Below are positions 2,477 to 17,473 of a stretch of 35,312 nucleotides of DNA, one piece after another (positions within the stretch are counted from its first letter, which is position 1; the number at the start of each line of letters is the position of its first letter). Made by a program: the position numbers and the translations under genes. The stretch is from positions 1-35,312 of the forward strand of contig JAFQBN010000019.1 of assembly GCA_017416685.1 (NCBI GenBank), given 5' to 3'. The notes beneath the pieces were generated by a model that had not been told where the DNA came from, ran no database searches, and was given only the letters and a program-made list of their open reading frames with translations. Source of the stretch: Oscillospiraceae bacterium. GTDB lineage: Bacteria > Bacillota > Clostridia > Oscillospirales > Oscillospiraceae.

Positions 2477-2511
2477 GTGTTTTTCACGAATTAAGTATGG
2501 GCCTGTGGCCC

Positions 2512-3393: not shown

Positions 3394-3504
3394 GATCGAC
3401 ATCCTCTCCGACCCAAGATATGGTGGCGCATAGCGCCCTGTGACCCTAGTCTTTGCGGCGGTGGAGAAACTATGCCGGCAACACAAAAAAACTGAAAAAA
3501 ACTG

Positions 3505-3533
3505 TTGATTTTTTTGACTTTCGGTGGTAGAAT
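3505..3533 (+). promoter_or_regulatory. Promoter of rpsT
   Basis: TTGATT (3505-3510), a 17-base spacer and TAGAAT (3528-3533) form a good sigma-A promoter about 60 bases upstream of the rpsT start. Confidence 0.7.
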
Positions 3534-3593
3534 ACATATCTGCACAGGCGTACTGTGCGCAAAATCTTAAATCATTCGGAGGAGGTGTTTGGT

Positions 3594-3857: not shown

Positions 3858-3872
3858 GCAATCCGAGAAATC

Positions 3873-3905
3873 ACCCGTCTGCACCCCGCAGGCGGGTTTT
3901 TCTTA
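3873..3905 (+). terminator. Terminator of rpsT
   Basis: A GC hairpin (CCCGTCTGC / GCAGGCGGG) followed by five T lies 15 bases after the rpsT stop. Confidence 0.85.
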
Positions 3906-3941
3906 TCAAACGACAAAATTCGGCAGAAAGGAGCGGATCAC

Positions 3942-4796
3942 GTGAGCTGGCTTAAAGGCGCCCGGGACTTTGTTCTGCGGGTGTGGCGGCTGTTCTCCCG
4001 GTATAATATTCCCCGGGCGGCTGCAGCCATGACCTATTTTTTCCTGTTGTCCCTGTTTCCTCTGCTGCTCTGCGTCAACGCCATCGTAGGCCGGTTCGAT
4101 GTGGATATGGCCCAGCTGCTGTCCATGCTTCACCGGGTGCTGCCCCATCAGGCGGTGGAACTGGTGGGAGATTACTTCCACTACCTGTCCGCTGTGCCGC
4201 CGGTGGGACTGTGGATCGGGATCCCCACGGTGCTGATCGCATCCTCTGCGGGTCTGCGGGTCCTGCTGGACACCATGAGCGAGCTGTACGGCCATCCCCG
4301 CAGCACCGGTGTACGGCGGCTGGCGGTCAGCCTGCTGTTCAGCCTGCTGTTTTTACTGACCCTGTGCCTTGCCGTTATCGTGGTGCTGACCGGTGAGCGG
4401 CCCCTGCAGTTTGTGGCCGGGCTGCTGGCCCGGCTTCTGGGGCAGAATTCCCATATACTGCTGCAGGTGGCGGCGGTGTCCCGCCTGTGGGCGTGGCTGC
4501 GCTATCTGCTGCTGTTCTGTTTTGTGGCGGTGCTGGTGCTGACGGTCTACCGGCTCGGTCTGCCCCGGCGGCAGGCCAAGGCATGGTCGGTGACGGTCAG
4601 CGCCCTGCTCAGCGCCACCACTATGGTGCTGGTATCCGGCCTGTTCTCCCGGTTTATCGACATGTCCGCCAACTACTCCCTGCTGTACGGGTCGCTGGCA
4701 TCCATCATCGTGCTGCTGCTGTGGCTGTACCTGTGCGGTACTATCCTGCTGCTGGGCGCGGTGGTCAACCGGGCGTGGACGGGGAAAATACTGTAA
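3942..4796 (+). CDS. YihY/BrkB family integral membrane protein
   Basis: This 284-residue polytopic membrane protein begins with a GTG behind AAAGGAG. The YihY/UPF0761 pattern is clear: an amphipathic start (VWRLFSRYNIPRAAAAMTYFFLLSLFPLLL), about six membrane helices, the internal helix pair LAVSLLFSLLFLLTLCLAVI, the NYSLLYGSLASIIVLLLWLY segment, and a final helix ending VVNRAW. The family was once called ribonuclease BN in error; its molecular role is unknown, though transport or envelope functions have been suggested. It converges with degV, and both end at one shared hairpin. Confidence 0.9.
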   Translation: MSWLKGARDFVLRVWRLFSRYNIPRAAAAMTYFFLLSLFPLLLCVNAIVGRFDVDMAQLLSMLHRVLPHQAVELVGDYFHYLSAVPPVGLWIGIPTVLIASSAGLRVLLDTMSELYGHPRSTGVRRLAVSLLFSLLFLLTLCLAVIVVLTGERPLQFVAGLLARLLGQNSHILLQVAAVSRLWAWLRYLLLFCFVAVLVLTVYRLGLPRRQAKAWSVTVSALLSATTMVLVSGLFSRFIDMSANYSLLYGSLASIIVLLLWLYLCGTILLLGAVVNRAWTGKIL

Positions 4797-4801
4797 TACA
4801 C

Positions 4802-4838
4802 AAAAAACAGCCTGCTGCATACGCAGCAGGCTGTTTTT
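4802..4838. terminator. Bidirectional terminator between yihY-like gene and degV
   Basis: AAAAAACAGCCTGCTGC pairs with GCAGCAGGCTGTTTTT around a short ATAC-type loop. T-runs occur in both directions, so it serves the two convergent genes. Confidence 0.9.
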
Positions 4839-4843
4839 ATGTC

Positions 4844-5701
4844 TTATTCGTCGAAATCTGCCAGCACGGCGGCGCCCAGCGCGCCGGGACCCACGTGACA
4901 GCCGATGCTCAGGGGCAGAGGGTCACTCATAAAGGGATAGCCGGGGAAGGTCTCCTGCACCGTCTTTGCCCAGGCAAGGCCGGCTTCCCGGTCGCCGGAG
5001 TAGGCGGCGGCGATGATGACCTTTTTGCCGGCGAACTCGCCGTTCAGGTCCTCTCGGATGGCATCCAGCATGGTCTGGCAGGCCTGTTTGGTTCCCCGGA
5101 CCTTGCGGTGCATGTCCAGCTTGCCGTCCAGAATTTTCATCACGGGCTTAATGTTCAGCACCGTACCCACCGCAGCTACGGCAGGGGTGATGCGGCCGCC
5201 CTTTTTCAGATAGTTCAAATCCTCCACGCTGATATAGATGTGGGACTGGCCGCCCTTTTCCTCCAGCCGCTGGGCAACTTCTGCCGCAGACAGGCCGGTT
5301 TTACACAGGCGGGCCGCCTCCAGCACGGACTGCTTCAGGGGGACGGAAATGCGGTGGTTATCCACCACGATGACCCGGCCATCGTAATCCTCGGCCAGAG
5401 CGCGGGCGGTGGCGCAGGAGCTGCTCAATCCGCTGGTCATGGGGATGTAGAGCAGGCTGTCATATTCCTCCAAAGCCTTGTCCCACATGGACAGCAGGTC
5501 TGCGGGGGCGGGCTGGGAGGAGAAGATGTCCGCCCCGCCGGTCTGCAGGGAGTAAAACTCCTCATGGGTCAGGTCCACGTATTCAAAACAGGGGCGGCCG
5601 TCCACAGTAAAGGGCATGGCCAGCAGGAAAATGCCCGCCTGACGGGCCTCTTCCGGGGAGATGCCGCTGTTGGTGTCGGTCATCACCGCGATACGCTCCA
5701 T
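4844..5701 (-). CDS. DegV family fatty-acid-binding protein
   Basis: DegV/FakB proteins hold a fatty acid and present it to the kinase FakA for phospholipid synthesis. The 285-residue product has the family layout: N-terminal VMTDTNSGIS, a central YIPMTSGLSSS lipid-headgroup motif near residue 87, VIVVDNHRIS, then the second-domain signature YLKKGGRI and LNIKPVMKILDGKL. The start ATG at 5701 has AGGAGG seven bases upstream. No fakA-like gene is in the window, so it is presumably encoded elsewhere. The gene is divergent from the EamA transporter gene, and each has its own strong promoter. Confidence 0.93.
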   Translation of the reverse strand: MERIAVMTDTNSGISPEEARQAGIFLLAMPFTVDGRPCFEYVDLTHEEFYSLQTGGADIFSSQPAPADLLSMWDKALEEYDSLLYIPMTSGLSSSCATARALAEDYDGRVIVVDNHRISVPLKQSVLEAARLCKTGLSAAEVAQRLEEKGGQSHIYISVEDLNYLKKGGRITPAVAAVGTVLNIKPVMKILDGKLDMHRKVRGTKQACQTMLDAIREDLNGEFAGKKVIIAAAYSGDREAGLAWAKTVQETFPGYPFMSDPLPLSIGCHVGPGALGAAVLADFDE

Positions 5702-5730
5702 GTTATGTTCCTCCTAATAATAGTTCTACC

Positions 5731-5759
5731 ATTGTAGTCCATTTTTGTCCGGCTGTCAA
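5731..5759 (-). promoter_or_regulatory. Promoter of degV
   Basis: Minus-strand TTGACA (5754-5759), a 17-base spacer and TACAAT (5731-5736), about 30 bases before the start codon. Confidence 0.8.
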
Positions 5760-5783
5760 CCGCGCAGGGCGGCGCAATTTCGG

Positions 5784-5812
5784 TTGACGGAGTCGAAAAA
5801 GGGCGGTATAAT
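5784..5812 (+). promoter_or_regulatory. Promoter of the EamA transporter gene
   Basis: TTGACG (5784-5789), a 17-base spacer and a consensus TATAAT (5807-5812), 44 bases before the start. Confidence 0.8.
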
Positions 5813-5856
5813 GGGCAGCAGCCGTCAGCAAGACGGCGGACAGAGAGGGAAAACGT

Positions 5857-6732
5857 ATGAAAAAAATCATAAATCCCCGGATGATGCTGATCGTGTCCAT
5901 GGTCATATTCGGTACCATCGGTTTGTTCAAGCGCAACGTGGCGGTCTCCTCCGGTGAGCTGGCCTTGTATCGGGCCGTCATGGGTGCGGCGCTGCTGGCC
6001 CTGTTTCTGCTGGTGACCAGACAGCCGATCCCGTTTGCACAGCTGAAAAAGGAAATTCCGCTGCTGCTTCTGTCCGGTGCGGCTATGGGTGTGAACTGGA
6101 TATTGCTGTTTGAGGCCTTTGAATATACCTCCATTTCCGCCGCCACCCTGAGCTATTATTTTGCCCCGGTGCTGGTCACCCTGATTTGCCCGTTCCTGTT
6201 CCGGGAACGGCTGGGGGCAAAGCAGATCATTTGCTTTGTTATGTCCACGGTAGGCATCGTGCTGATCACCGGCTCGGTGAGTGTTGCCGGCGGACGGGAC
6301 CTTATCGGCATCCTGTTCGGGCTGGGCGCGGCGGTATTTTACGCCACGGTCATCCTGCTGAACAAATACATTAAAAATGTGCAGGGACTGCACCGTACCT
6401 TTTTGCAGTTTCTTGCGGCCATTATCGTGCTGGTACCCTACGTGGCTCTGACCGGCGGAGTGACCCTGGGCGGCCTGGACGGTGCCGGCTGGATCAATCT
6501 GCTCGTTGTGGGCCTTGTCCACACGGGGTTTGCCTACTGCCTGTATTTCTCCTCTTTGAAAGAGCTGCCCGGACAGGAGGCGGCCATCCTCAGCTATGTG
6601 GACCCCCTGGTGGCGGTGCTGCTGTCTGTGGCGGTGCTGCATGAACCCATGTCCCTGTGGCAGTGGGTGGGCGGCGCGCTGATCCTGGGCTTTACCATCT
6701 GGAATGAATTTCCGGCCAGAGGCAACAAATGA
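5857..6732 (+). CDS. EamA/DMT-family transporter
   Basis: This 291-residue protein shows ten hydrophobic helices in two EamA repeats, the architecture of drug/metabolite-superfamily exporters. Repeat 1 carries GELALYRAVMGAALLALF and SAATLSYYFAPVLVTLICPFLFRERL. Repeat 2 carries VGLVHTGFAYCLYFSSLKELPGQEAAILSYVDPLVAVLLS and ends EPMSLWQWVGGALILGF. Members move small metabolites, amino acids or drugs; the substrate here cannot be told. The ATG at 5857 follows AGAGAGGGA. It ends at a hairpin shared with the convergent M23 peptidase gene. Confidence 0.9.
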   Translation: MKKIINPRMMLIVSMVIFGTIGLFKRNVAVSSGELALYRAVMGAALLALFLLVTRQPIPFAQLKKEIPLLLLSGAAMGVNWILLFEAFEYTSISAATLSYYFAPVLVTLICPFLFRERLGAKQIICFVMSTVGIVLITGSVSVAGGRDLIGILFGLGAAVFYATVILLNKYIKNVQGLHRTFLQFLAAIIVLVPYVALTGGVTLGGLDGAGWINLLVVGLVHTGFAYCLYFSSLKELPGQEAAILSYVDPLVAVLLSVAVLHEPMSLWQWVGGALILGFTIWNEFPARGNK

Positions 6733-6733
6733 G

Positions 6734-6772
6734 AAAAAAGCTTCACCAAATGTTATTTGGTGAAGCTTTTTT
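6734..6772. terminator. Bidirectional terminator, EamA gene and M23 peptidase gene
   Basis: A long hairpin (AAGCTTCACCAAAT / ATTTGGTGAAGCTT) is flanked by A6 and T6, and its right end touches the M23 stop codon. Confidence 0.9.
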
Positions 6773-8324
6773 ATGGCAAATAGTTCAGCGGGTTGACGGA
6801 GGAACCCCGGATGCGGACCTCGAAGTGGCAGTGGTTGCCGGTAGACCGGCCTGTGCTGCCCATCTTGGCGATGACCTGACCCTGATAGACCCGCTGTCCC
6901 ACGGAGACCAGATTGCTGGAATTGTGGCCGTAATAGGTCTGGGTACCGTTGTCGTGGGTGATGATGACCAGATAGCCGTAGGCGCCCTTGTAACCGGCAA
7001 AGGTGACCTTGCCGCCGTCGGCGGCCTTGATGGAAGAGCCGTAGCTGCCCGCGATGTCGATACCGGAGTGGTAGCTGCGGGAGCCGAAGATCTTGCGGTA
7101 GCCGAAGTAAGAGGTGATCTTGCCTCTGGTGGGCCAGATATAGTAGCCGTTGGAGGCGGTCTTGGGCTTGGGCTTGGTACCCACAGCCTTGATGGTGGTG
7201 GTAGGCTCGGACAGGGTGGTGTACTCCACCACAGTGCGTTCCTTTTCCACGCCGTTGACCCGGGTGATGTCGGCGGTGACTTCCGCCTGCCCCTCTACGC
7301 CCTTGACCAGGATCTTGGACGAGCCGACGTAGATGCTGGCATCGTCCTGAGTGACCACAGGACACTCGATAGGCTCAAGATAGGTGGCGCGCTCGGTGGT
7401 GCGCACGGACAGGCGGGGGATCAGCTCCCGCACGTTGATGACCTGACCGATGGAGAGCTTGTTGATGTTGACGTCGGGGTTCAGGGCCTTCAGCTCGCTG
7501 ACCGACATATCGTTGCGGTAGGCGATGCCGCCGAAGGTGTCGCCCTTGACGATGGTATAGGTGGTCTCGCCGGAGGTGCTTTCCGTCAGCAGACGGCGCA
7601 TCTCCTCCGGGTCTGCTACCTGGGCAGAGGCGAACACGGGGTTGAGTTCGATCTCCTCCACAAACTCGGCGGTGACGGTATTTTCGTTGATGTAGGCATT
7701 GCGGATGTCCTGCAGAATGGCGTTAAAGGCGGACTTGCTGTCGATCACGCCGACAAACTGACCGCCCACCACCACGGAGTACTGGCGCAGACCCTCGTCC
7801 TCGCCGCTGTCCAGATGAGAGGAGAAGTAGTCCTCGAACACACCCTTGTCATCCAGATCGGTGCGGCGGGAAACGCCCAGCCGGTAGGAGATCGCATTAT
7901 CAATGGTATAGTCGTAACCCAGCAGACTGCGGCTGGACTGCTCCACTGAGGAGATGGCGGCGGCCACCGTGTCCCGGTCGGCCACCGTACCCACGTTTTC
8001 GCCGTCCACGTACACCGCGTAGCTGACGGAGTAGAGGGTGGTGCAGATAAGCACCAGACCTGCGACGCAGGATGCGGACAGGAAGGAGACCGGGGCGGCG
8101 TACCGGCGGCCGGCTACGGCCTCGTGACAGATCAGGAAGATGCGGCGGCCCTTCAGCCGCAGCCACTCGCTTTTTTCCGTCAGCCATTCGCCCTTTGCGC
8201 GGAAGAACCGGGCCATCTGCTGACGGTCGGGGCAGCGTGTAGCCAAGCGGCGCACGGGGGGGAGAATGATTTGCTTCAGCTTTTCCCACGCCTTCACAGG
8301 GCGCAGGCGCTTGGGTTGCTCCAT
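6771..8324 (-). CDS. M23 peptidoglycan endopeptidase with LysM and G5 domains
   Basis: This 517-residue envelope protein is predicted to cut peptidoglycan cross-bridges. A basic cytoplasmic N-terminus (1-76) leads to one membrane helix (about 77-103) and an extracellular linker (to ~250). Then come a LysM domain (about 255-298; YTIVKGDTFGGIAYRNDMSV), a G5 domain (about 305-384; VNGVEKERTVVEYTTL) and a C-terminal M23/LytM domain (about 394-516). The zinc ligands of M23 are all present: H419 and D423 in HSGID, and H498 and H500 in HCHFE, so it should be active. The start at 8324 follows GGAGGTGA. Similar clostridial proteins act in growth, division or spore-cortex processing; nothing here decides among these. 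Confidence 0.93.
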   Translation of the reverse strand: MEQPKRLRPVKAWEKLKQIILPPVRRLATRCPDRQQMARFFRAKGEWLTEKSEWLRLKGRRIFLICHEAVAGRRYAAPVSFLSASCVAGLVLICTTLYSVSYAVYVDGENVGTVADRDTVAAAISSVEQSSRSLLGYDYTIDNAISYRLGVSRRTDLDDKGVFEDYFSSHLDSGEDEGLRQYSVVVGGQFVGVIDSKSAFNAILQDIRNAYINENTVTAEFVEEIELNPVFASAQVADPEEMRRLLTESTSGETTYTIVKGDTFGGIAYRNDMSVSELKALNPDVNINKLSIGQVINVRELIPRLSVRTTERATYLEPIECPVVTQDDASIYVGSSKILVKGVEGQAEVTADITRVNGVEKERTVVEYTTLSEPTTTIKAVGTKPKPKTASNGYYIWPTRGKITSYFGYRKIFGSRSYHSGIDIAGSYGSSIKAADGGKVTFAGYKGAYGYLVIITHDNGTQTYYGHNSSNLVSVGQRVYQGQVIAKMGSTGRSTGNHCHFEVRIRGSSVNPLNYLP

Positions 8325-8391
8325 GGGCGTGGGTCACCTCCGGAATAAAAGTAACAAAAAAAGAAAAAAGTTACAAAACAATTACAAAAGC

Positions 8392-8420
8392 ATCATACAC
8401 GATTTTTGCGTCCCTGTCAA
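8392..8420 (-). promoter_or_regulatory. Promoter of the M23 peptidase gene
   Basis: Minus-strand TTGACA (8415-8420), a 17-base spacer and TATGAT (8392-8397), near consensus. Confidence 0.8.
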
Positions 8421-8464
8421 CCCTTTCTCCCGGCCCATATATTTTGGGGTCGTATCGGATGTTT

Positions 8465-8512
8465 CAGCAAGATATTGTGGAAAACTATGTGCAGAATGTC
8501 GATATCTTGTGT
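8465..8512. promoter_or_regulatory. Pair of NrdR-like boxes in the M23-pta intergenic region
   Basis: Two near-palindromes, CAAGATATTG (8468-8477) and CGATATCTTG (8500-8509), match the NrdR core C-w-A-t-A-T-a-T-w-G at nine and eight of ten positions. Their cores start exactly 32 bases apart, the spacing of tandem NrdR boxes (about three helix turns). The first shares 17 identical bases (CAAGATATTGTGGAAAA) with the reverse complement of the box region upstream of nrdD (33245-33261). The rest of this 354-base gap (8325-8678) holds the M23 promoter and the small ORF at 8611; nothing else is recognised. Confidence 0.5.
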
Positions 8513-8610
8513 AAAGAGGGGACAGTTGTGGAAAATGTGGAAAGAACGGCGCTGCGGGGAGGGAAAATGGGTGGGGTATGCTCTTGAAATTTTGGCCCGG
8601 AGGTGTTACC

Positions 8611-8694
8611 ATGAGAGGGAAAATAGGGCAAAAGGGGCGTTTGCCCCGGCCTGCCTGTAAAAATCGGAGGAATGCAATATGTTTACCAAACTGA
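8611..8694 (+). CDS. Possible 27-residue leader ORF overlapping the pta start
   Basis: A strong Shine-Dalgarno (GGAGGTG, five bases before ATG) precedes a 27-codon reading frame beginning MRGKIGQKGRLPRP. It runs through the pta ribosome binding site and stops 16 bases inside pta in another frame. The product is basic and matches nothing I know. It may be a leader peptide coupling translation to pta, or chance. Only the ribosome binding site and overlap support it. Confidence 0.3.
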   Translation: MRGKIGQKGRLPRPACKNRRNAICLPN

Positions 8695-9692
8695 TCGAGA
8701 CCCTGAAGCAGAATCCCCGCAAGATCGTCTTTACCGAGGGCACCGATGCCCGTATTCTGGAGGCGGCTGCCCGCCTGCTGAAGGAGGGCTTCCTGTCCGT
8801 GCTGCTGGTTGGCAATGTGGACGAGGTGAAGGCCGCTGCCGCCAAGGGCGGTTTTGACATCGCCGGTGCCGAGATCCTGGATCCCGCCACTTACGAGGGG
8901 ATGGACGCCATGGTGGAGACCATGGTGGCTCTGCGCAAGGGCAAGATGACCGCCGAGGAGTGCCGCGAGCTGCTGGCCAAGGGCAACTACTTCGGCACCA
9001 TGCTGGTGAAGATGGGTGTGGCCGACTGTTTGCTGGGCGGCGCTACCTACTCCACCGCCGACACCGTGCGTCCCGCGCTGCAGCTGGTCAAGACCAAGCC
9101 CGGCGCCAACCTGGTGTCCTCCTGCTTCATTATGTGCCGCGAGGGCGGCGACCCCGCCCTGCAGAAGATCTGCATGGCCGACTGTGCCATCAACCTGTCC
9201 TATGAGGACAGTGTGGATAAGGAAGGCAACGTCACCGTGTCCGGCGCCCAGAAGCTGGCTGAGGTGGCTGTGGAGTCCGCCCGCACCGCCGCCATCTTCG
9301 GCATTGACCCCAAGGTCGCTATGCTGAGCTTCTCCACCAAGGGCAGCGGCAAGGGCGGCACTGTGGCCCTGTCTGCCGAGGCCACCAAGATCGCCCAGCA
9401 GCTGGCTCCCGATCTGGCCATCGACGGCGAGATGCAGTTCGACGCCGCCGTGTCCCCCACCGTGGGTCAGCTGAAGTTCCCCGGCTCCAAGGTCGCCGGC
9501 TACGCCAACACCTTCGTATTCCCCCTGATCGAGGCGGGCAACATCGGCTACAAGATCGCCCAGCGTCTGGGCGGCTACGATGCCTACGGCCCCATCCTGC
9601 AGGGTCTGAACGCCCCCATCAACGACCTGTCCCGCGGCTGCAACGCCGAGGAGGTCTACTCCATGGCTATCATCACCGCCGCTCTGGCCTAA
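8679..9692 (+). CDS. pta: Phosphate acetyltransferase
   Basis: Pta interconverts acetyl-CoA and acetyl phosphate, the first step of ATP-yielding acetate formation in fermenting anaerobes. The 337-residue length fits the short (single-domain) Pta class. Family blocks are present: KIVFTEGTDARILEAAARL, ADCLLGGATYSTADTVRPAL, ISFSTKGSGKG-like LSFSTKGSGKGG, DGEMQFDAAVSP, KVAGYANTFVFPLIEAGNIGYKIAQRLGG and the closing GPILQGLNAPINDLSRGC. GGAGG lies nine bases upstream of the ATG. Phosphotransbutyrylase is the main alternative, but the DGE(M/L)QFDAA and NTFVFP motifs favour Pta. The acetate kinase gene is not in the window. The intergenic region upstream is unusual (NrdR-like boxes, small ORF). Confidence 0.93.
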   Translation: MFTKLIETLKQNPRKIVFTEGTDARILEAAARLLKEGFLSVLLVGNVDEVKAAAAKGGFDIAGAEILDPATYEGMDAMVETMVALRKGKMTAEECRELLAKGNYFGTMLVKMGVADCLLGGATYSTADTVRPALQLVKTKPGANLVSSCFIMCREGGDPALQKICMADCAINLSYEDSVDKEGNVTVSGAQKLAEVAVESARTAAIFGIDPKVAMLSFSTKGSGKGGTVALSAEATKIAQQLAPDLAIDGEMQFDAAVSPTVGQLKFPGSKVAGYANTFVFPLIEAGNIGYKIAQRLGGYDAYGPILQGLNAPINDLSRGCNAEEVYSMAIITAALA

Positions 9693-9704
9693 ATTGAACA
9701 CACA

Positions 9705-9736
9705 AAAGGGCCGCATCCAATCGGATGCGGCCCTTT
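9705..9736 (+). terminator. Terminator of pta
   Basis: Hairpin GGGCCGCATCC / GGATGCGGCCC followed by TTTCATTTT. Confidence 0.85.
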
Positions 9737-9777
9737 CATTTTGGCGCAAAAGAGAGAAAATGGAGCCAAAGCAAAAG

Positions 9778-9806
9778 TTGAAAGAAACCCGTCTGCGTGA
9801 TATGCT
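9778..9806 (+). promoter_or_regulatory. Promoter of the duplicated-domain protein gene
   Basis: TTGAAA (9778-9783), a 17-base spacer and TATGCT (9801-9806), about 50 bases before the next start codon. Confidence 0.6.
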
Positions 9807-9854
9807 GTTGACAGAGCAAAATGCTGCAAAATTGAGGAAAAGAGGCAGATTGTC

Positions 9855-10841
9855 ATGATTTCCTGTACTGAGTTTATCCCCCTTTACAGCGAGTTTTTCC
9901 GGTTTCTGGAGGAGCGGGAGGGCCGCGATGCGGTCATGCGCTACTGGCACTATATCTCCGGCCGCAACGTGGGCAACCGGACCAATCCCAACAGCCTGAT
10001 CTCCCATTTGGAGCAGCACAGGGACAACCCCATGCTGGGTGCATGGGAGTACTGGCGCCGCACTCTGGCTGAGGAGGCCAGCGACACCATCCGCCTTTAC
10101 AACAGCAAGGAGAACTATACCATCAGTCACATGCGCCACTGCCCCTCCCGGGGCCGACTGAACGCCCTGGAGCATATCGAGCCTTATTATGACTACTGCG
10201 AACACTGCAGTGTGGTGTACGCCCCCGTTCTGGAGCAGTACGGCCTGACCTCCGAGCGGGACCACTCCAAGGTCGCCAATGCCGAGTGCAGGTCCCTGAT
10301 GTATGTGAAGGGCCACCGGCCCGACATCGACCTTGCCTCCATCACCGACGACGATATGCGCCGCATGGCTCAGGAGGAAGGCGTGGAGCTGATCGACCTG
10401 CAGGCCGAGGACAACAAGTACCTGCACCGGGGCTTCCACCTCAGCAGCGACACCGCCCTGCGCTTCTGCGGCGAGAACTACGGTGACGAGGTGGTGCGCC
10501 AGTTTGTGGCCGATTTCACCAAGCGCTACTATGCCCCCCAGATTGAGGATTGCAAGGCACGGGGGTTGGTTGCCATTCGCGAGTGGCTGGAGGCGGTCTA
10601 TGCCGCCGAGGAAGCCAGCGAGGTTCTGCACACCGACCTTTCTGACAACGAGCTGACCGTCCGCATTGACCACTGCCCCGCCATCGCCTATATGCGCAGC
10701 GTCAACCGTGAACCCTCCCCCTGGTACATCGAGCAGACCCGCACCCTGTACGCCGCCTTTGCCGAAGGGGCCGGGCTGGACTTCAAGCTGGACTATTTCG
10801 AGGACGACGGCAAGACGCAGTTCCATTTCATCAAAAAATAA
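9855..10841 (+). CDS. Unknown protein with two tandem homologous halves (L-2-amino-thiazoline-4-carboxylate hydrolase-like?)
   Basis: This soluble 328-residue protein has no signal or membrane segment. Its two halves resemble each other. Residues ~20-150 contain EYW..TLAEEASDTIRLYN, a HCPS motif at 95-98 and a CEHC pair (C115, C118). Residues ~208-328 contain EWLEAVYAAEEASEVLHTD and HCPA at 273-276, but have YIEQ where the Cys pair stands in the first half. The layout of one Cys-rich half and one Cys-poor half recalls proteins annotated as ATC hydrolase-like, but I cannot confirm this. The gene has its own promoter and shares a terminator with the convergent M16 peptidase gene, so it is a one-gene unit. 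Function unknown. Confidence 0.8.
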   Translation: MISCTEFIPLYSEFFRFLEEREGRDAVMRYWHYISGRNVGNRTNPNSLISHLEQHRDNPMLGAWEYWRRTLAEEASDTIRLYNSKENYTISHMRHCPSRGRLNALEHIEPYYDYCEHCSVVYAPVLEQYGLTSERDHSKVANAECRSLMYVKGHRPDIDLASITDDDMRRMAQEEGVELIDLQAEDNKYLHRGFHLSSDTALRFCGENYGDEVVRQFVADFTKRYYAPQIEDCKARGLVAIREWLEAVYAAEEASEVLHTDLSDNELTVRIDHCPAIAYMRSVNREPSPWYIEQTRTLYAAFAEGAGLDFKLDYFEDDGKTQFHFIKK

Positions 10842-10842
10842 G

Positions 10843-10877
10843 AAAAAGCTGTCCTGCATGCGCAGGACAGCTTTTTT
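10843..10877. terminator. Bidirectional terminator
   Basis: AAAAAGCTGTCCTGC / GCAGGACAGCTTTTTT hairpin between the unknown gene and the M16 peptidase gene, with T-runs both ways. Confidence 0.9.
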
Positions 10878-10879
10878 GT

Positions 10880-12136
10880 TCAGAGAAATCGCGCCAGGTT
10901 GGATTGATAGTCTTCCCCCGTGCGCACCCGGCCAACGGCGGATACGCTGGCCCGGCTGAAATCCAGCACTTCGCCCGCCAAGTCCCGAAGCTGATGGGCG
11001 GTGACGGCATCGTAGGCGGCCAAAATCTCGTCCGGGGAGGACACCTTGCCCCGCAGCAGCATGGAGTTGCCCGCGTGGCTCATGCGGGCCTGGGTGGACT
11101 CCAGACCCATGAGTACGTTGGCCTTGGCCTGCTCCCTTGCCCGGTCCAGCTCGTCGGCGGTGGGGCCGTGTTCGGCCATCTCCGCCGCCACCCGGCACAT
11201 GGTGGACAGGGCCTTGTCCTCGGTCTGAGGGGACAGGGCGGTGTACAGGCCCAACAGGCCCGTGTCCTCGTGGTCGGAGATGTAAGAGTAGACGGTATAG
11301 CAAAGGCCCTGCTGCTCCCGCACCTGCTGGAACAGGCGGGAGGATACGCCGCCGCCCAAAATGGAGGACAACAGGGTCATCTGGTAGCGGCGGTCGTCCA
11401 AAAAGGACGGGGCGGGGAAGCCTATAATGATGTGGTTTTGCTCAATGGCCTTGCGGCGGACCGTGACTGCCGGGCAGTACTGAGCGGCCCTGACCCGGGG
11501 TTCTTTGCCGGGAGTGAGGGTGGAAAACAGGTTTTTGAGCTGCTCCACATCGCTCTGGGTGAAGCTGCCGGCCAGAGAAATGACGATTTTGTGGGGCAGA
11601 TAGTGGCTGCGGCGGTAGTCCCGGAGCCACGCACCCGTCATGGCAGACAGGGTGCGCCGGGTACCCAGAATGGGCCGGGCCAGGCTGTGGCCCTTGTAGA
11701 CCGCGGCGTTCAAAAGCTCGTTGACCAGGTCCTCCGGCGTGTCCCGGTACATGCCGATCTCCTCCAGGATCACGCCCCGCTCGGTATCCACTTCTTCATC
11801 CAGAAACGCGCCGCACAGCAGCATATCCCCCAGAAGCTCGATGGCCCGGGGCAGGTGCAGGTCGAGACAGCGGGTGTAGAAGCAGGTGGACTCCTTGGTG
11901 GTGTAGGCGTTCATCTGCCCGCCGATGGAGTCGATGTCCATGGCCAGCCGGTCGGTGGAGCGGTTCAGAGTGCTTTTGAAGGCCATATGTTCCAAAAAGT
12001 GGGCCGCGCCGCTCTGCCCGGCGGACTCGTGCCGGGAGCCGGTACCCACGAAAACGCCCACCGCCGCCGTGCGTACCGCCGGGACAGGCTGGGTCAGAAT
12101 GCGCACGCCGTTGGGCAATGTTATCATTTCGTACAT
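10880..12136 (-). CDS. M16 family (processing-peptidase-like) zinc protease
   Basis: The 418-residue product begins MYEMITLPNGVRILTQPVP and carries the inverted zinc motif HFLEH (H46, E49, H50) after GSRHE...G.AHFLEHMAFK. The distal acidic ligand lies in ERGVILEEI, and the C-terminal half has the typical ILGGGVSSRLFQQVREQQGLCYTVYS block. All active-site residues are present, so this is the active subunit type. Clostridial YmxG/PepR-like members are usually cytoplasmic and of unknown substrate. The ATG at 12136 is chosen because GAGAGG precedes it and the family starts there; a longer frame to 12211 has no support. It is divergent from the HAD phosphatase gene. Confidence 0.93.
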   Translation of the reverse strand: MYEMITLPNGVRILTQPVPAVRTAAVGVFVGTGSRHESAGQSGAAHFLEHMAFKSTLNRSTDRLAMDIDSIGGQMNAYTTKESTCFYTRCLDLHLPRAIELLGDMLLCGAFLDEEVDTERGVILEEIGMYRDTPEDLVNELLNAAVYKGHSLARPILGTRRTLSAMTGAWLRDYRRSHYLPHKIVISLAGSFTQSDVEQLKNLFSTLTPGKEPRVRAAQYCPAVTVRRKAIEQNHIIIGFPAPSFLDDRRYQMTLLSSILGGGVSSRLFQQVREQQGLCYTVYSYISDHEDTGLLGLYTALSPQTEDKALSTMCRVAAEMAEHGPTADELDRAREQAKANVLMGLESTQARMSHAGNSMLLRGKVSSPDEILAAYDAVTAHQLRDLAGEVLDFSRASVSAVGRVRTGEDYQSNLARFL

Positions 12137-12307
12137 GAAGAAACCTCTCTTTTTACAGGTTTCCCTCAGTTTACCACAACTTTCGACCCCGCTCAATGGA
12201 AATTTCCCCAAGGCGGAAAAATTTGCTTTTCTTGCGGTCGAGGGTGTGGTAGAATGGCGTTGTGGATAAGAATAAAAGAAGAAAAGAACAAAAAGAGAGG
12301 TTGCTTT

Positions 12308-13093
12308 ATGGAAAAGCTGCTAGCGAAAAAAGGATTTATCTGCGATATGGACGGTGTCATCTACCACGGCAGCCAGCTGCTGCCCGGGGTGCAGGAGTTC
12401 GTCAACTGGCTCTATCGCGAAAACAAAGAATTTCTGTTCCTGACCAACAACAGCGGCAAGACTCCCCGGGAACTGAAAGAGAAGCTGGCCCGCATGGGTC
12501 TGGACGTGGACGAGAGCCACTTCTACACGGCCGGTCTTGCCACTGCCAGTTTTATTGCCAATCAGACCCCCGGCGCCCGTGTGTTCGCCATCGGCGACCC
12601 CGGTCTGACCCACGCCCTGTACCAAAAAGGGCTGAGTCTGGACGATGTGTCCCCGGACTACGTGGTCATCGGTGAAACTGCGAATTATAATTACGACGCC
12701 ATCTGCAAGGCGGTTCAGCTGGTGCGCAAGGGCGCCCGGCTCATCGGCACCAACTTCGACATGACCGGCCCGGCGGAGAACAACACCATCATCCCCGCCT
12801 GCCGCGCCCTGATGGCCCCGGTGGAGCTGGCCTCGGGCAAAACGGCCTACTACGTGGGCAAACCCAACCCCCTGATGATGCGCACCGGCCTTGACCTGCT
12901 GGGTGTCCACTCTCAGGAGGCGGCCATGATCGGCGACCGCATGGATACCGACATTCAGGGCGGCATCGAGTGCGGCCTTGATACGGTGCTGGTGCTGTCC
13001 GGCGTGTCCGACCGGCAGACCGCGGCCTCCTTCCCCTACCGTCCCCGCCTGATTCTGAACGGCGTGGGCGACATCCCTGCCGCGGCAGGTTGA
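12308..13093 (+). CDS. HAD-IIA family (NagD-like) phosphatase
   Basis: The 261-residue protein has all HAD motifs: the catalytic DMDGVIYHG (nucleophile D13, acid D15), motif II FLTNNSGKTPRE, the lysine of KPNPLMM, and motif IV IGDRMDTDI. The C2-type cap between motifs II and III defines subclass IIA (NagD, 4-nitrophenylphosphatase, ribonucleotide or sugar phosphate phosphatases). The exact substrate is not readable from sequence. The ATG at 12308 follows AGAGAGG. The large in-frame extension upstream crosses the M16 gene on the other strand and is artefactual. It ends at a hairpin shared with the island that follows. Confidence 0.92.
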   Translation: MEKLLAKKGFICDMDGVIYHGSQLLPGVQEFVNWLYRENKEFLFLTNNSGKTPRELKEKLARMGLDVDESHFYTAGLATASFIANQTPGARVFAIGDPGLTHALYQKGLSLDDVSPDYVVIGETANYNYDAICKAVQLVRKGARLIGTNFDMTGPAENNTIIPACRALMAPVELASGKTAYYVGKPNPLMMRTGLDLLGVHSQEAAMIGDRMDTDIQGGIECGLDTVLVLSGVSDRQTAASFPYRPRLILNGVGDIPAAAG

Positions 13094-13103
13094 TAAAAGA
13101 ATG

Positions 13104-13136
13104 AAAACCGCCCTCCCAGATGGGAGGGCGGTTTTG
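13104..13136. terminator. Bidirectional terminator
   Basis: AACCGCCCTCCCA / TGGGAGGGCGGTTTT hairpin separating the HAD gene from the convergent immunity-like gene. Confidence 0.88.
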
Positions 13137-13138
13137 CG

Positions 13139-13615
13139 TTATGCGTCAACTTCCACGGCACAGAACAGGCCGCTGTCCAAATCAAAGGCGGCGGCGTAGT
13201 AGTCGAATGCCTCTCCGGGAGCGGGAAACTCGTCAATTTCAAGATTCCAAAGTACCCCGTGGCGTTTTACCGGTTCAAACAGCACGTCGATGTTATCGGC
13301 GGGAGCCAGCAATTCACGAGCCGTATCGGCATAAAATCCCGGAGCAATGCCGTGATCGGCCATCTGCATGGAAAAAGAATATATATATTCAGGTGAAATC
13401 TGTGCCACCACGACATAGATTCCTTTCGAGCGAAAAAAGCCCTTGTGGGTGTCCGTCTGCTGCAAAATCTCTGTGTTCGGGGGGAAATCGCCGAACGATG
13501 GCGGGGCGTTCGTACACCAAACGGCGTAGATACAAACACAACACAGAAGAATTGCTGGCAAAAAGCAGAGAAAACCGAAGGCGCAAATGCCAGCTTTTTT
13601 TGAAAATAATTTCAT
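13139..13615 (-). CDS. Second membrane-anchored immunity-like protein
   Basis: This 158-residue protein has an N-terminal membrane helix (about 12-33, GFLCFLPAILLCCVCIYAVW) and a ~120-residue domain likely outside the membrane. It is a paralogue of the protein at 13946-14419: shared are ILQQTDTHKGFFRSKG, the VVVAQISPEY segment and the C-terminal FDLDSGLFCAVEVDA. Overall identity looks like about one third by eye. Its ATG lies five bases after the stop of the orphan toxin-tip reading frame, exactly as the other copy follows the full-length toxin gene. Context suggests an immunity protein for a variant toxin; this is inference. Base composition is lower in GC than the flanking housekeeping genes. 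Confidence 0.75.
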   Translation of the reverse strand: MKLFSKKAGICAFGFLCFLPAILLCCVCIYAVWCTNAPPSFGDFPPNTEILQQTDTHKGFFRSKGIYVVVAQISPEYIYSFSMQMADHGIAPGFYADTARELLAPADNIDVLFEPVKRHGVLWNLEIDEFPAPGEAFDYYAAAFDLDSGLFCAVEVDA

Positions 13616-13620
13616 TTGGA

Positions 13621-13965
13621 TTATCCCTTCAAATCAAAGGTTTTGCTGAACTGGATATGGATACCATACGTGTTGATCACACCGTTGGCCTGCGAAAGCA
13701 GGCCGGCATCGTTTGCTAAAGGTCCGGGGTTAATATTGAGCATAATGTAGTGTCCCTCATCTCCGTAGACCACCCTGAAGTTGTCGAAATCGTACGTGTC
13801 CTCTAAAACAAAGGTTACGTATACCTTCGAAGGGCCGCGGACGCAGGGGTATTTGATTTTGACTTCCTCGATTCCGTAGTACAGGTCGGTGTCACCGGAA
13901 GCTTGATAATTATTCCTCCATGCAAGTGATATCAACGATATTTTGTTAGGAGTCGTATTCCACAC
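13621..13965 (-). pseudogene. Orphan C-terminal toxin tip (truncated duplicate)
   Basis: About 89 codons reproduce the last 89 residues of the 564-residue protein at 14425-16119 (about 75 of 89 identical by eye), including TDLYYGI, LEDTYDFDNFRVVYGDEG and LANDAGLLSQANGVINTY. The large N-terminal part is absent. The open frame begins with a GTG inside the end of the upstream immunity-like gene (20-base overlap), and the first ~20 residues have no counterpart, so I doubt it is translated from there. Orphan tips of this kind, each followed by an immunity gene, are typical of polymorphic toxin loci, where they serve as a reservoir for tip replacement by recombination. Confidence 0.75.
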
Positions 13966-14419
13966 AGCAGAGCAAGCCGGAGTCCAAGTCGAACACCGCG
14001 GTGAAATAGTCCGACCAAAGCTCGTCGATAAAAGCGATGGTCTCTCCTCGATATAGTACCAGGGCGTTGGTTGACTCTAAAATAGGCTCGATATTGCTTA
14101 TGCCTTTTAGACGCTCGCGGGTGCTGTTGGTCAATCCCCCCCAATAATAATCAAATCCCCTGCTTCGCAGGCATCTGGCAAATTCATCTGTGTGTTCGGG
14201 AGGAACTTGAGCGACCATAATAGCAACGCCTTTTGTGCGGAAAAAACCTGTGTGGCTATCCGTTTGCTGCAGAATCTGTGTGTCGGGAGGGAGTGAAATC
14301 CCGATTGAGGAGGGCGCGTTAGCATTCCAGCAAATGTAAAGAATAGCGCTGGCAAATATGAGGAGAAACGTTGCTGCACCAAGAGCGCCGATGCCAAGGA
14401 ATTTTAGAAATGCTTTCAT
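13946..14419 (-). CDS. Membrane-anchored immunity-like protein
   Basis: This 157-residue protein has a strong N-terminal membrane helix (about 9-31, GALGAATFLLIFASAILYICW) and a soluble domain predicted to face outward. That domain carries ILQQTDSHTGFFRTKG, VAQVPPEHTDEF and a C-terminal FDLDSGLLCCVEYDS. The ATG sits five bases after the toxin stop codon, and the ribosome binding site (GGAAGGG) lies inside the toxin's last codons, so the two are translationally coupled. Small membrane-tethered partners directly downstream of a toxin gene are the pattern for immunity to toxins acting at the membrane or wall (compare TipC with TelC, or Cmi with colicin M). I do not recognise a named family. Role is inferred from context. 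Confidence 0.78.
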   Translation of the reverse strand: MKAFLKFLGIGALGAATFLLIFASAILYICWNANAPSSIGISLPPDTQILQQTDSHTGFFRTKGVAIMVAQVPPEHTDEFARCLRSRGFDYYWGGLTNSTRERLKGISNIEPILESTNALVLYRGETIAFIDELWSDYFTAVFDLDSGLLCCVEYDS

Positions 14420-14424
14420 CTGAA

Positions 14425-16119
14425 TTACCCTTCCAAATCAATGGTTTTGCTAAACCGGATGTGGATGTCATACGTATTGATTACGCCGTTGGCTTGGGAA
14501 AGCAGGCCGGCATCATTTGCTAAAGGGCCGGGATCAATATTGAGTATGATGTAGTGCCCCTCATCTCCGTAGACCACTCTAAAGTTGTCGAAATCGTACG
14601 TGTCTTCTAAAACAAAGGCTACGTATACCTTCGAAGGGCTGTGGACACAGGCGTATTTGATTTCGGCCTTTCCGATTCCGTAATACAAGTCGGTTTCGTT
14701 GGTTTCTTGAAAATTAACGGTAAATGTACCCGTGTTATCATACGAACTGGAGTTTTTTCGAATAAGCTCTTTTACCGCGGAGAACCCCCGTGAAAAAGCC
14801 TCGCTCTCCATAACTTTTTGAGTGACCCAGTGGGTCTGGGTAAAGTAGAGCTTGCTGGGGGACGATTCCAGTGAGTGCTCTAGCAGTAGAGCAGCAACAT
14901 CATATCCTTTGGGTCGCAAATAATATTCAGCACCCAACTTCCAAATAGCACGCACAATGTCGGCGGCAAAGCGCTCTTGCAGTTGGTGTGTTGCCCAGTT
15001 TAGAATCGGTCGTCCCTTGGGGATTCCCTCCAAGATATGCAAAAGGTCAAAAAAGCGACTAAGTTTGCGCATCTTATCGGGGTCGGTTAAAAATTCAGCG
15101 ATTCGATTGGTTATCTTACTGATGCCGTGTTCTGTTTCTTCGCCAAGGACTCCATCTTCCTCCAGATGGAGCGTTGGGTCCAAATCGTTTGCGCTGCGCT
15201 GCAGATCACGGATTTTGGCCGGATCGCCGCCCACATACCACGCCAGCTTATCGATCTTGCCGGTCAGGCCCATGGTGGAAGCGCCGCAGTGGTCCAGGTC
15301 ATCTACCACGTCCCGCAGAATATCGGCAGTGCCGTCGGTGATATAATCCCCCTCCCGCTGGGCATCGTCCAGATCGTGTTCCAGCTGGCGGGCAATGGAA
15401 TTCAGGTCCTCCCGCAGCAGGGCGGCGTAATCGGCAGTGCCGAACATGCCGGACAGGGTGCGGCCAAAGATCTGCTCCTCAAAATGCTCCCGATAGGCGT
15501 GGCTGCCTACCTCATAGCCGCAGCGGCCCTCGTGCCGGGGAGGGTCGGTCTGCTGCTGGTACTCCTCGGCCACGGAGGTCAAAAAGCTGCTGCTATGGTC
15601 CAGATCGGCGATGGTCTGCAGAAGCAGGCGCGTTTTCTCGTCCCGTCCGGCGGCGGAGTTCACGCCCCAATGCCCTGCTTCCAGCAGCAGAGCCACCCTG
15701 TCACGGGTGGAAAAGGGGGACAGTTTGATGGCCTCTATCGCCTTTTCCACGGCCCGCGGGTCCGGGATGTCGCGGCTCCATGGGGACATAAAACTCAGGG
15801 ACAGGCCCTGTATGCAATCGTCGGCCCGGTGGGCAGATACACCACCCATCTTACAAACATCATACAGCGACTGCACCTGTTTTGCAAGGGCGTTTCGGTC
15901 CTCCGACGGCAGGAAACGTATTTTCCCCGCCAGTTCATTCAGGTCGTTGTAAATGGCATCGATAGCATTGCTTGCCCGGTGTCCAAGGCGGGTCAGGGCC
16001 ATTCGATAGTCAGGTCTTCGGGTGGTTACATCGGAAAACAGGGTGTCGTGATTGAGTTTTTCCCAGTAGTCGCTGCTGCCGAGAATGGTGCCGGACCAGC
16101 TGGAAGCTTCTTTGCTCAT
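14425..16119 (-). CDS. Putative polymorphic toxin with exchangeable C-terminal domain
   Basis: This 564-residue protein has no signal peptide or membrane helix. Residues 1-300 are mostly helical. Residues ~303-345 weakly resemble a peptidoglycan-binding repeat (DLQRSANDLDP...EEDGVLGEETEHGI). The last ~95 residues (about 470-564) form a beta-rich tip with TDLYYGI, LEDTYDFDNFR and LANDAGLLSQANGVI. That tip alone is repeated downstream as an orphan, which identifies it as the exchangeable module. D506-x-Y508-D509 resembles the D-x-Y-D of colicin M-type lipid II phosphatases, but the following H-R pair is not clearly placed. GC content falls from the N-terminal to the C-terminal half. AGGGAGGAACC precedes the ATG. 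No secretion system or LXG motif is seen, so the export route is unknown. Confidence 0.7.
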   Translation of the reverse strand: MSKEASSWSGTILGSSDYWEKLNHDTLFSDVTTRRPDYRMALTRLGHRASNAIDAIYNDLNELAGKIRFLPSEDRNALAKQVQSLYDVCKMGGVSAHRADDCIQGLSLSFMSPWSRDIPDPRAVEKAIEAIKLSPFSTRDRVALLLEAGHWGVNSAAGRDEKTRLLLQTIADLDHSSSFLTSVAEEYQQQTDPPRHEGRCGYEVGSHAYREHFEEQIFGRTLSGMFGTADYAALLREDLNSIARQLEHDLDDAQREGDYITDGTADILRDVVDDLDHCGASTMGLTGKIDKLAWYVGGDPAKIRDLQRSANDLDPTLHLEEDGVLGEETEHGISKITNRIAEFLTDPDKMRKLSRFFDLLHILEGIPKGRPILNWATHQLQERFAADIVRAIWKLGAEYYLRPKGYDVAALLLEHSLESSPSKLYFTQTHWVTQKVMESEAFSRGFSAVKELIRKNSSSYDNTGTFTVNFQETNETDLYYGIGKAEIKYACVHSPSKVYVAFVLEDTYDFDNFRVVYGDEGHYIILNIDPGPLANDAGLLSQANGVINTYDIHIRFSKTIDLEG

Positions 16120-16170
16120 ATAGGTTCCTCCCTTAAAAAGATTTTCATTTATGGGAGGAAAGGAGGTAAT

Positions 16171-16190
16171 TGTGTACGATCAAGTACACA
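16171..16190. promoter_or_regulatory. Palindrome upstream of the toxin-like gene
   Basis: TGTGTAC-N6-GTACACA is a perfect seven-base inverted repeat about 50 bases before the toxin start. It could be an operator or a small hairpin in the leader; no clear promoter was found around it. Confidence 0.35.
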
Positions 16191-16197
16191 TAGCGTG

Positions 16198-16235
16198 AAA
16201 AAAGGCTGCGGAACTTTCGTTCCGCAGCCTTTTTG
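16198..16235 (-). terminator. Hairpin terminator between symporter and toxin genes
   Basis: AAGGCTGCGGAAC / GTTCCGCAGCCTT with A6 and T5 flanks. It lies upstream of the symporter stop in plus coordinates, so it mainly ends the minus-strand symporter transcript. Confidence 0.85.
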
Positions 16236-16252
16236 TGTGGTTTGAGTGAGAC

Positions 16253-17473
16253 TTACAGCTCCACCTGAGCGACGCTTTCCTCTTCGATGTTGTGCTTTTT
16301 GGCATAGCCGGTCAGCATCAGGGTCAGGGCGCCGTCGCCGGTGACGTTGCAGGCGGTGCCGAAGCTGTCCTGCAGGGCGAAGATGGTCAGCATCAGGCCG
16401 GTGCCGGTGGCATCAAAGCCCAGCACGGAGACGATCAGACCCAAAGAGGCCATGACCGTACCACCGGGGACACCGGGGGCGCCGATGGCGAACACGCCCA
16501 GCAGCAGGCAGAACAGGATCATGGAGCCGATGGAGGGCAGGGTGCCGTACAGGATCTTGGACACCACCATGACGAAGAACACCTCGGTCAGAACGGAGCC
16601 GCACAGGTGGATGTTGGCAAACAGGGGGATGCCGAAGTCCACCATGTCACGGCGCAGGGTCTTGGACTTGTGGGCGCAGGTCAGGGCCACGGACAGAGTG
16701 GCGGCAGAGCTCATGGTACCCACGGCGGTGATATAGGCCGGGCCGTAGTGGCGGACGACCTCGATGGGATTGGTCTTGGTGTAGATGCCGGCGGCACCGT
16801 ACAGCACGCCCAGCCAAATGTAGTGGCCGACCATGACGATCAGAATGACGATGACGAACACGGGCAGCTGCTTGGTGATGGTGCCGTCATAGGCAAGGCA
16901 GGCGAAGGTGGTGCCGATGAAGAAAGGCAGCACGGGGATGACCACCTTGGACACGATCTGCAGCACGATGCGCTGAATTTCGTCCAGCAGGCGGATCATG
17001 GTGGAAGCTTTGGTCCACACGGCGGCCAGACCCAGCAGCACGGACAGCACCAGAGCGCTCATCACGGGCATGATCTGGGGGATGTTCAGCTCAAACGCTA
17101 CACCGGGCAGCTCCTTCAGGGCGTCCACCTGGCTGGCGATGGGCAGGCTGGGAATGATGCCGTAACCGGCGCCCATGGACATGAAGGCGGCCAGAATGGA
17201 GGACACGTAAGCCAAAATCAGGGCCACAGTCAGCATCCGGCTGGCACTGGCGCCCAGCTTGGTGATGGACGGGGCAATAAAGCCGATGACGATCAGGGGC
17301 ACGCAGAAGGTGATCAGCTGACCCATGATGTACTTGGCGGTGACTACCACGGTCATAACAGGACCCATGACAGCGGGCAGCTGCGCCTCGAAGCTGCTGG
17401 CCAGCAGACCGACGACCATACCGATGAGCAGGCCGATGAGCAGCTTTGCGGGGAGACTCTTAAAGAATTTCAT
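16253..17473 (-). CDS. Dicarboxylate/amino acid:cation symporter (DAACS family)
   Basis: This 406-residue membrane protein belongs to the GltP/DctA/SstT superfamily, which imports C4-dicarboxylates, glutamate, aspartate or serine/threonine with Na+ or H+. Diagnostic parts are the serine-rich re-entrant loop GTMSSAATLSVAL, the second hairpin loop GAPGVPGGTVMAS, and the substrate/cation helix DSFGTACNVTGDGAL. About eight membrane helices are visible. The DAACS Arg/Asp specificity residue cannot be assigned with confidence, so the substrate stays open. The next gene downstream of its promoter region is malic enzyme, which would suit malate or other dicarboxylate uptake, but the two are separate transcripts. 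The start ATG at 17473 follows AAGGAGGG. Confidence 0.92.
   Translation of the reverse strand: MKFFKSLPAKLLIGLLIGMVVGLLASSFEAQLPAVMGPVMTVVVTAKYIMGQLITFCVPLIVIGFIAPSITKLGASASRMLTVALILAYVSSILAAFMSMGAGYGIIPSLPIASQVDALKELPGVAFELNIPQIMPVMSALVLSVLLGLAAVWTKASTMIRLLDEIQRIVLQIVSKVVIPVLPFFIGTTFACLAYDGTITKQLPVFVIVILIVMVGHYIWLGVLYGAAGIYTKTNPIEVVRHYGPAYITAVGTMSSAATLSVALTCAHKSKTLRRDMVDFGIPLFANIHLCGSVLTEVFFVMVVSKILYGTLPSIGSMILFCLLLGVFAIGAPGVPGGTVMASLGLIVSVLGFDATGTGLMLTIFALQDSFGTACNVTGDGALTLMLTGYAKKHNIEEESVAQVEL

Follow-up and report, generated by a model that had tools for sequence, protein, structure and literature searches.

A probable polymorphic toxin–immunity locus of Oscillospiraceae with an exchangeable C-terminal domain, membrane-type partners and an orphan tip

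Contact-dependent inhibition (CDI) and Rhs systems combine a constant N-terminal part with a variable C-terminal toxin region (CT) and an adjoining immunity gene, and can be followed by an orphan CT without a start and then by an orphan immunity gene (PMC3150448). In Escherichia coli EC93, the orphan CT and its immunity protein are 76% and 35% identical, respectively, to the UPEC536 pair (PMC3150448). The same arrangement was seen on the minus strand of a 35,312-nucleotide stretch from an Oscillospiraceae bacterium (contig JAFQBN010000019.1, assembly GCA_017416685.1; this whole stretch is hereafter the window). The locus comprises a gene for a 564-residue protein (P0001), a gene for a small partner (P0002), an orphan copy of the end of P0001 and a second partner gene (P0004). 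The lopsided identities of EC93 resemble those found within this one locus, ~80% for the tips and 41–42% for the partners. The locus departs from CDI and Rhs in that family searches assign its N-terminal module (N-module) to neither CdiA nor Rhs and in that its orphan lacks the first half of the C-terminal toxin domain (CTD). The LXG toxins of the type VIIb secretion system (T7SSb), such as TelE and EsxX with their glycine zippers, are also Gram-positive polymorphic toxins, and the EsxX zipper resembles a glycine-zipper-like stretch in a sister tail of the N-module (PMC10434224; PMC12744356); however, P0001 has no LXG match, the T7SSb ATPase EssC was not found above cut-off in 13 carrier genomes, and the window's CTD is a different domain. 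For one toxin domain countered by several unrelated membrane-associated immunity families, the best analogy is colicin M (ColM), which acts outside the cytoplasm (PMC5821083), although the CTD lacks both a PF14859 match and the signature HR. As lineage-confined globular N-domains bearing exchanged toxin tips, MafB-N and Microscilla-N are comparable to the N-module, but they go with a signal peptide (PMC3482391), whereas the Oscillospiraceae N-module has no hydrophobic start and carries a peptidoglycan-binding-like segment.

Systems of this kind are known; what the searched libraries lack is the CTD, its partners and the N-module. We consider it likely that this is a polymorphic toxin–immunity locus of Oscillospiraceae with an exchangeable, envelope-acting CTD, a neutralizing P0002 and a displaced cassette downstream. 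Its features are as follows.

14425–16119, minus strand: P0001, a 564-residue polymorphic toxin-like protein; open frame with Shine-Dalgarno (SD)-like AAGGGAGG; N-terminal part common to proteins with other C-termini
15085–16119, minus strand: N-module of P0001 (residues 1–345), the presumed delivery part; common to 18 loci; two similar helical-looking blocks and a PG_binding_1-like segment
15085–15231, minus strand: peptidoglycan-binding-like segment in the N-module; IRxLQxxLN..L.EDGVxGxxT
14425–14997, minus strand: predicted CTD, P0001 residues ~375–564; homologous to CTDs behind Rhs cores and signal-peptide-like N-termini
13946–14419, minus strand: P0002, a 157-residue partner carrying a single N-terminal membrane anchor and predicted to confer immunity; begins 5 nt downstream of P0001; hydropathy maximum of 2.24 at residue 12
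13621–~13914, minus strand: orphan tip, a copy of the C-terminal half of the CTD; ~80% identical to P0001 residues 468–564; dN/dS 0.17; without adequate start
13139–13615, minus strand: P0004, a 158-residue second partner, predicted orphan immunity protein; 41–42% identical to P0002; SD-like GAAGGGA; N-terminal hydropathy peak 2.68

The C-termini of these proteins are exchanged. The N-module (first ~340–345 residues) was found in 18 distinct loci: the window, L005, L006, L008, L009, L010, L013 and L025–L035 (L denotes loci and G genomes; G254 and L027 were counted as one locus). A P0001 search of 300 family genomes gave six carriers, the window's own included, and a scan of genome contigs with the conserved N-terminal part gave 11 loci, labeled Oscillibacter or Oscillospiraceae in 10 cases and 'uncultured bacterium' in one (L029). 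CTD-type tails follow four of the 18 N-modules (window, L005, L030 and L032) and glycine-zipper-like tails follow 13, the broken L028 remaining unclassed. Ten of the 13 zipper-like tails still end in a V/I-x-DIT-like motif, and several of these genes are broken. The 18 loci therefore show the constant N-terminal part with exchanged C-terminal domains expected of polymorphic toxins. An earlier interpretation made from the DNA letters alone (the sequence-only reading) had proposed such a system and named a constant, non-exchanged C-terminus among homologues of the 564-residue protein, with no co-occurring partner, as grounds for abandoning it; the homologues exchange theirs. Base composition changes within the gene as well: GC content is 58.6% in the window's N-module, 46.8% in residues 346–564 and ~60% in the flanks, and the other N-module loci with a CTD give 54.5/40.0, 53.5/37.9 and 53.8/40.9% for N-module and C-terminal part, a step as expected for imported cassettes. 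Both parts were also measured in seven glycine-zipper loci, with the step present in L027, L031 and L034 and small in L033.

Within the N-module, two blocks of internal similarity were discerned by eye. NF052665 (NCBIfam) matched residues 228–274 below threshold (E 3.3e-4, 20.5 bits against a cut-off of 130). A profile of residues ~297–345 (A13) matched the endolysin 7rum at 6.4e-6 and, weakly, the spore cortex-lytic enzyme 9h68 and the effector 4nso (both 0.024), a profile similarity to solved PG_binding_1 members; Pfam PF01471 itself gave E 0.13 in the relative L006 only, with no match in P0001. No hydrophobic start was apparent in L030, L032 or P0001. Among neighbor clusters of at least three N-module loci (flanks up to 6 kb), toxins and partners were the only plausible genes, the other recurrent clusters being antisense or overlapping frames within the toxin gene. 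Three N-module toxins lie in one genome at G291:C1 ~2,629,982–2,670,671 (L006, L010, L013); two are in close tandem with different C-terminal parts and partners, and at least one is broken.

Exchange was also observed from the other side. Profile searches recovered the CTD in 2 of the 394 genomes examined from the order, in 10 of 381 from the class and in 9 of 398 from the phylum (E 0.01, two of these likely by chance). Searches centred on G828 (its family), G708 (its order) and G878 (its order) gave 8 of 13, 1 of 10 and 5 of 24 genomes, respectively; all these counts include the own genome of the window or of the search centre. After removal of same-place duplicates (L017, L019, L020, L021, L022, L098), fragments (L074, L075, L076, L079, L080, L093, L094, L097, L104) and two likely chance hits (L023, L024), 33 distinct CTD loci remained. 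An Rhs core precedes the CTD in six loci (above cut-off in L015 and in five of nine proteins of a second scan), and hydrophobic, signal-peptide-like starts precede it in L018, L065–L067 and L099–L101; no N-terminal family was matched for L064, L072, L087 or L099. The same toxin domain thus stands behind unrelated N-terminal parts, which the sequence-only reading had proposed to test. The CTD opens with approximately GYxxAAxLLEHSL and its end follows a stretch rich in beta-like patterns; near-invariant are a DL pair, the D and F of D-x-[YF]-[DN]-F, and an N.

No Pfam or NCBIfam family was found above curated cut-off for the CTD or partner, nothing convincing in PHROGs or PADLOC, and no trustworthy match among solved structures for P0001, CTD or partner. 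That the sequence-only reading recognized neither tip nor partner as a named family agrees with Pfam and NCBIfam. The tip does, however, occur beyond this locus, the CTD having relatives in many places across Clostridia. Several weak matches were judged to be chance: P5CR_dimer (0.22), Mcl1_mid (0.006), TssO (3.8e-4) and MMPL (6.1e-4) in the signal-peptide/coiled region of L018, a CC0731_fam match to P0001 that falls well short of its cut-off (3.3e-4), and PADLOC matches of 0.0075–0.0079 on L030 and L006. PHROGs tape-measure/lysin matches (down to 3.5e-9) concern the glycine-rich tails of L006 and L008 rather than the protein of the window. There was no plasmid match for P0001, four CTDs and P0002, no phage match for two CTDs, and no confirmed P0001 or CTD relative in viral contigs.

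In 31 of the 33 CTD loci, the frame that follows on the same strand carries a hydrophobic stretch at its N-terminus (hydropathy peak of at least 1.55, beginning by residue 25) and starts −32 to +76 nt away, the position of an immunity gene directly downstream; these frames are accordingly predicted, from position, to encode immunity proteins. The two misses are L018 and the broken L067. Three of the 31 frames are short and probably truncated (L070, 83 aa; L078, 70 aa; L088, 73 aa), and a lipobox-like pattern occurs in L015, L087, L096 and L092 by a simple pattern and in L081 by eye. As background, 4 of 32 mechanically chosen window frames pass the same test, P0002 included; P0004 lost its place to an antisense frame, and the 32 contain several spurious frames. 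As an internal control, such an N-terminus was seen in 0 of 15 listed partners of glycine-zipper-like tails (14 distinct, L007 being L027), with a maximum of 0.94. BLASTP (E 1e-3) divides the CTD partners into 10 groups, all 10 membrane-type. The P0002 group contains both window copies, L005, L030, L032, L065, L066 and L086; the family lies downstream of the CTD in G034 and twice in the metagenome-assembled genome SIG479, and its link beyond Oscillospiraceae is modest (E 2.5e-5 to 2.9e-4). The expectation that the tip always adjoins this partner was borne out in Oscillospiraceae (5 of 5, the orphan included) but elsewhere the neighbor mostly belongs to another sequence group. Taken with the exchange of C-termini and the CTD behind unrelated N-termini, the membrane-type neighbor in 31 of 33 loci supports the polymorphic-toxin reading.

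The partners of glycine-zipper-like tails (L006–L010, L013, L026–L028, L031, L033–L035) are soluble-looking proteins of ~200–256 aa in several sequence groups; two that were scanned, those of L006 and L007, gave no match in Pfam or NCBIfam up to an E-value of 1. In genus g388, the CTD genes L067, L069, L070, L071 and L078 are broken by stops or frameshifts, and of their neighbors one is full-length (L069), one is 138 aa, two are truncated and one is missing.

The mechanism proposed is as follows. P0001 would consist of the constant N-module, with its peptidoglycan-binding-like segment, and the exchangeable toxin CTD. P0002 would be held in the cytoplasmic membrane through a single N-terminal helix and expose its globular part on the outside; since such a topology, and the N-terminal hydrophobic segment of the partner in 31 of 33 loci, point to action at or outside the cytoplasmic membrane, the CTD most likely harms the cell envelope from outside, attacking the bilayer or a wall precursor, and P0002 most likely blocks it at the membrane's outer side. 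The orphan tip and P0004 would be an older or incoming CTD–immunity cassette displaced downstream. In this view the tip is decaying from the 5' side, whereas the immunity gene is retained and would protect against kin still bearing that tip. Toxicity, neutralization, the external site of action and the displacement route are what we infer.

How the CTD would act can be narrowed less, and the data favor neither a pore-like nor an enzymatic action. A membrane-active CTD, pore-forming or depolarizing and plugged or sequestered by membrane-resident partners, is a possibility we hold tentatively. All 10 partner groups are membrane-type by hydropathy, the partners of L099–L102 have peaks near residues 25 and 59 that suggest more than one helix, and the CTD opens with the hydrophobic GYxxAAxLLEHSL while no full catalytic set is invariant; against this, the CTD differs from the sister tail in having neither a clear transmembrane hairpin nor a clear glycine zipper, and its second half looks beta-rich by eye. 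That the CTD is instead a ColM-like lipid II hydrolase in the wall zone, neutralized by several unrelated membrane-associated immunity families, appears unlikely. The partner logic is the same, unrelated membrane-associated immunity proteins having been recruited against ColM (PMC5821083), and most CTDs have a D-x-[YF]-[DN]-F near the C-terminus that recalls the DXYD of DXYDX5HR. However, PF14859 matched none of nine CTD members at E up to 10 (filters drop weak matches), no HR follows the motif, and the D positions vary, the second being N in several members and the first N in L015; membership in the colicin M family was rejected on these grounds.

The two halves of the window locus are joined by a repeat of 300 nt (13574–13873 against 14378–14677) at 83% identity and a spacing of 804, far beyond chance. 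The copy of the toxin tip reported by the sequence-only reading is present, but it spans 96–97 residues (468–564) and not ~89; compared with the tip of P0001 it is ~80% identical at the protein level (79–81%), with 96 codons free of stops and frameshifts (dN 0.096, dS 0.57, dN/dS 0.17). Also as read earlier, a 157-residue membrane-anchored partner gene follows P0001 at 5 nt, and a diverged paralogue follows the tip at the same distance; P0002 and P0004 are 41–42% identical, with dN 0.51 and saturated silent sites. When aligned, the duplicated block loses identity within tens of bases of the partner gene's start. Tip and first partner bases are much more alike than the rest of the partner gene, a contrast that hints either at gene conversion acting on the tip or at a partner that diverges fast. 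Between Oscillospiraceae loci, CTDs are 49–52% identical and first partners 34–37% (28–30% for the second partner of G034), so the pair within the window has either an unusually alike tip or an unusually diverged partner.

The exchanged unit is approximately residues 375–564, so the orphan, described earlier as a toxin tip, is only its C-terminal half and lacks a first half that is conserved elsewhere. Its frame is open from a GTG at 13965; a GGAGG lies ahead of the tip, but by eye no in-frame ATG, GTG or TTG follows it. It is probably not an expressed toxin. Comparable remnants were observed at sister loci. L027, which has a glycine-zipper-like tail, carries a 35-aa remnant of a tip behind its toxin and immunity genes, and then another partner gene; in three frames, N-module scraps with stops appear too, so this looks like an internally deleted second toxin. 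The remnant resembles the tail of L025, and the second partner belongs to the L025 partner group. In L034, a 21-aa remnant stands ahead of a second, related partner; L005 and L033 have two partners in tandem, L033 also with a tail remnant upstream on the other strand; and L031 has a second N-module start downstream. Displacement and decay of a toxin whose partner gene stays behind would explain these loci. Because tip remnants precede a second partner in two sister loci, and because half the CTD and a good start are missing, the orphan tip is most readily explained as a displaced cassette that has decayed. We doubt that it is a functional short protein, such as an accessory factor or regulator: its intact frame and dN/dS of 0.17 would fit, but it lacks the conserved half of the CTD and an adequate start, the L027 and L034 remnants are just 35 and 21 aa, that of L027 beside stops, and orphan cdiA-CT genes mostly lack start signals as well, yet can have intact toxin activity (PMC3150448).

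The case for a polymorphic toxin–immunity locus is carried by the exchange in both directions, the position and membrane type of the partners, the GC step and the recurring decayed tips before second partners, all of which are observed. Several results weigh against it. The hydropathy cut-off was chosen after looking at the data, and nine partners, some as short as 70, 83 and 138 aa, all belong to a single group and a single genus, so that the 31 amount to far fewer independent cases. L018 is an intact CTD gene with no partner frame of at least 60 aa within 450 nt. Where CTD genes are broken in the genus of G828, the partner is often truncated or missing, which gives no support to retention of immunity after toxin loss. 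The GC step is absent or tiny in three of the seven measured glycine-zipper loci (L025, L026 and L029). The orphan tip is intact in frame, and its dN/dS of 0.17 could mean a residual role; we read this ratio as divergence while both tips belonged to working toxins. Finally, no export system could be tied to the N-module. A structural or spore protein of the wall (P0001) with a membrane receptor (P0002) would suit the peptidoglycan-binding-like segment but is very improbable, as it offers no reason for C-termini to be exchanged in both directions, for the fusions to Rhs, for partner genes in tandem or for the GC steps.

Delivery by T7SSb was considered and rejected: EssC (TIGR03928, cut-off 778 bits) was above cut-off in 0 of 13 carriers, some of them incomplete assemblies. 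Each has a ~110–123-bit TIGR03928 match to one ATPase stretch, taken for FtsK/SpoIIIE. P0001 showed no LXG domain, with no Pfam match at E up to 10 (filters drop most above ~0.1), and no Rhs family in Pfam or NCBIfam, the CTD alone being shared with Rhs proteins. A tail sheath scored above cut-off in 11 of the 13 carriers; of 150 family genomes, which include three of the carriers, 44 had one (Fisher p 1.3e-4, uncorrected for kinship). This enrichment is weakened by kinship and by the two carriers without sheath, one of which, G031, is near-complete with its N-module gene split over two frames; no genetic link between sheath and N-module was seen, and contractile-tail delivery of N-module toxins is a lead only. 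It would be a long step, and an improbable one, to conclude that the N-module defines a non-T7SSb delivery route for antibacterial toxins in gut Oscillospiraceae, possibly by loading onto the compact contractile phage-like element that tends to occur in carriers, and the CTD a new class of wall- or membrane-zone toxin against which some ten unrelated immunity families were recruited.

The locus offers a testable toxin–immunity pair in Oscillospiraceae, a CTD that recurs across Clostridia with no Pfam or NCBIfam family above cut-off, and a presumed delivery module for which a search of 13 carriers did not reveal the expected secretion system. The membrane-type partners of this one toxin family fall into ten BLASTP groups, a situation that, for colicin M, a review calls surprising (PMC5821083). 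No description of the tip, partner or N-module was found in the literature, where one under another name may be missed, and no open-licence paper was found that combines Oscillibacter with a polymorphic toxin.

The locus lies between a frame for a HAD-type phosphatase (ending ~13093, plus strand) and a dicarboxylate-symporter-like gene (16253–17473, minus strand), both named from their translations. Purine runs resembling SD sequences precede P0001, P0002 and P0004 by eye. Two terminator-like hairpins flank it:

13104–13135, minus strand: terminator-like hairpin after P0004; 14-bp stem, 4-nt loop, T-rich tail
16199–16234, plus strand: terminator-like hairpin; 16-bp stem

The region has five terminator-like hits in total, close to the shuffle mean of 4.2, so that only the long stems speak for these two hairpins.

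A compact phage-like element of ~12–13 kb was noted in L082 (G000:C27:1-20000, 1939–14366) and L084 (G1044:C37:22000-41999, ~3668–16436), between hemW-like and D-alanyl-D-alanine-carboxypeptidase-like genes (names from translations). By PHROGs, the L082 element has terminase, portal, major head, sheath and baseplate; L084 was tested for terminase only. No lysogeny genes were noticed, no search having been aimed at them, and the element may be a vertically kept PBSX- or GTA-like element. L083 (G291:C1:1018000-1037999, 3484–10531) carries the terminase and sheath of a similar element, in flanks that look different.

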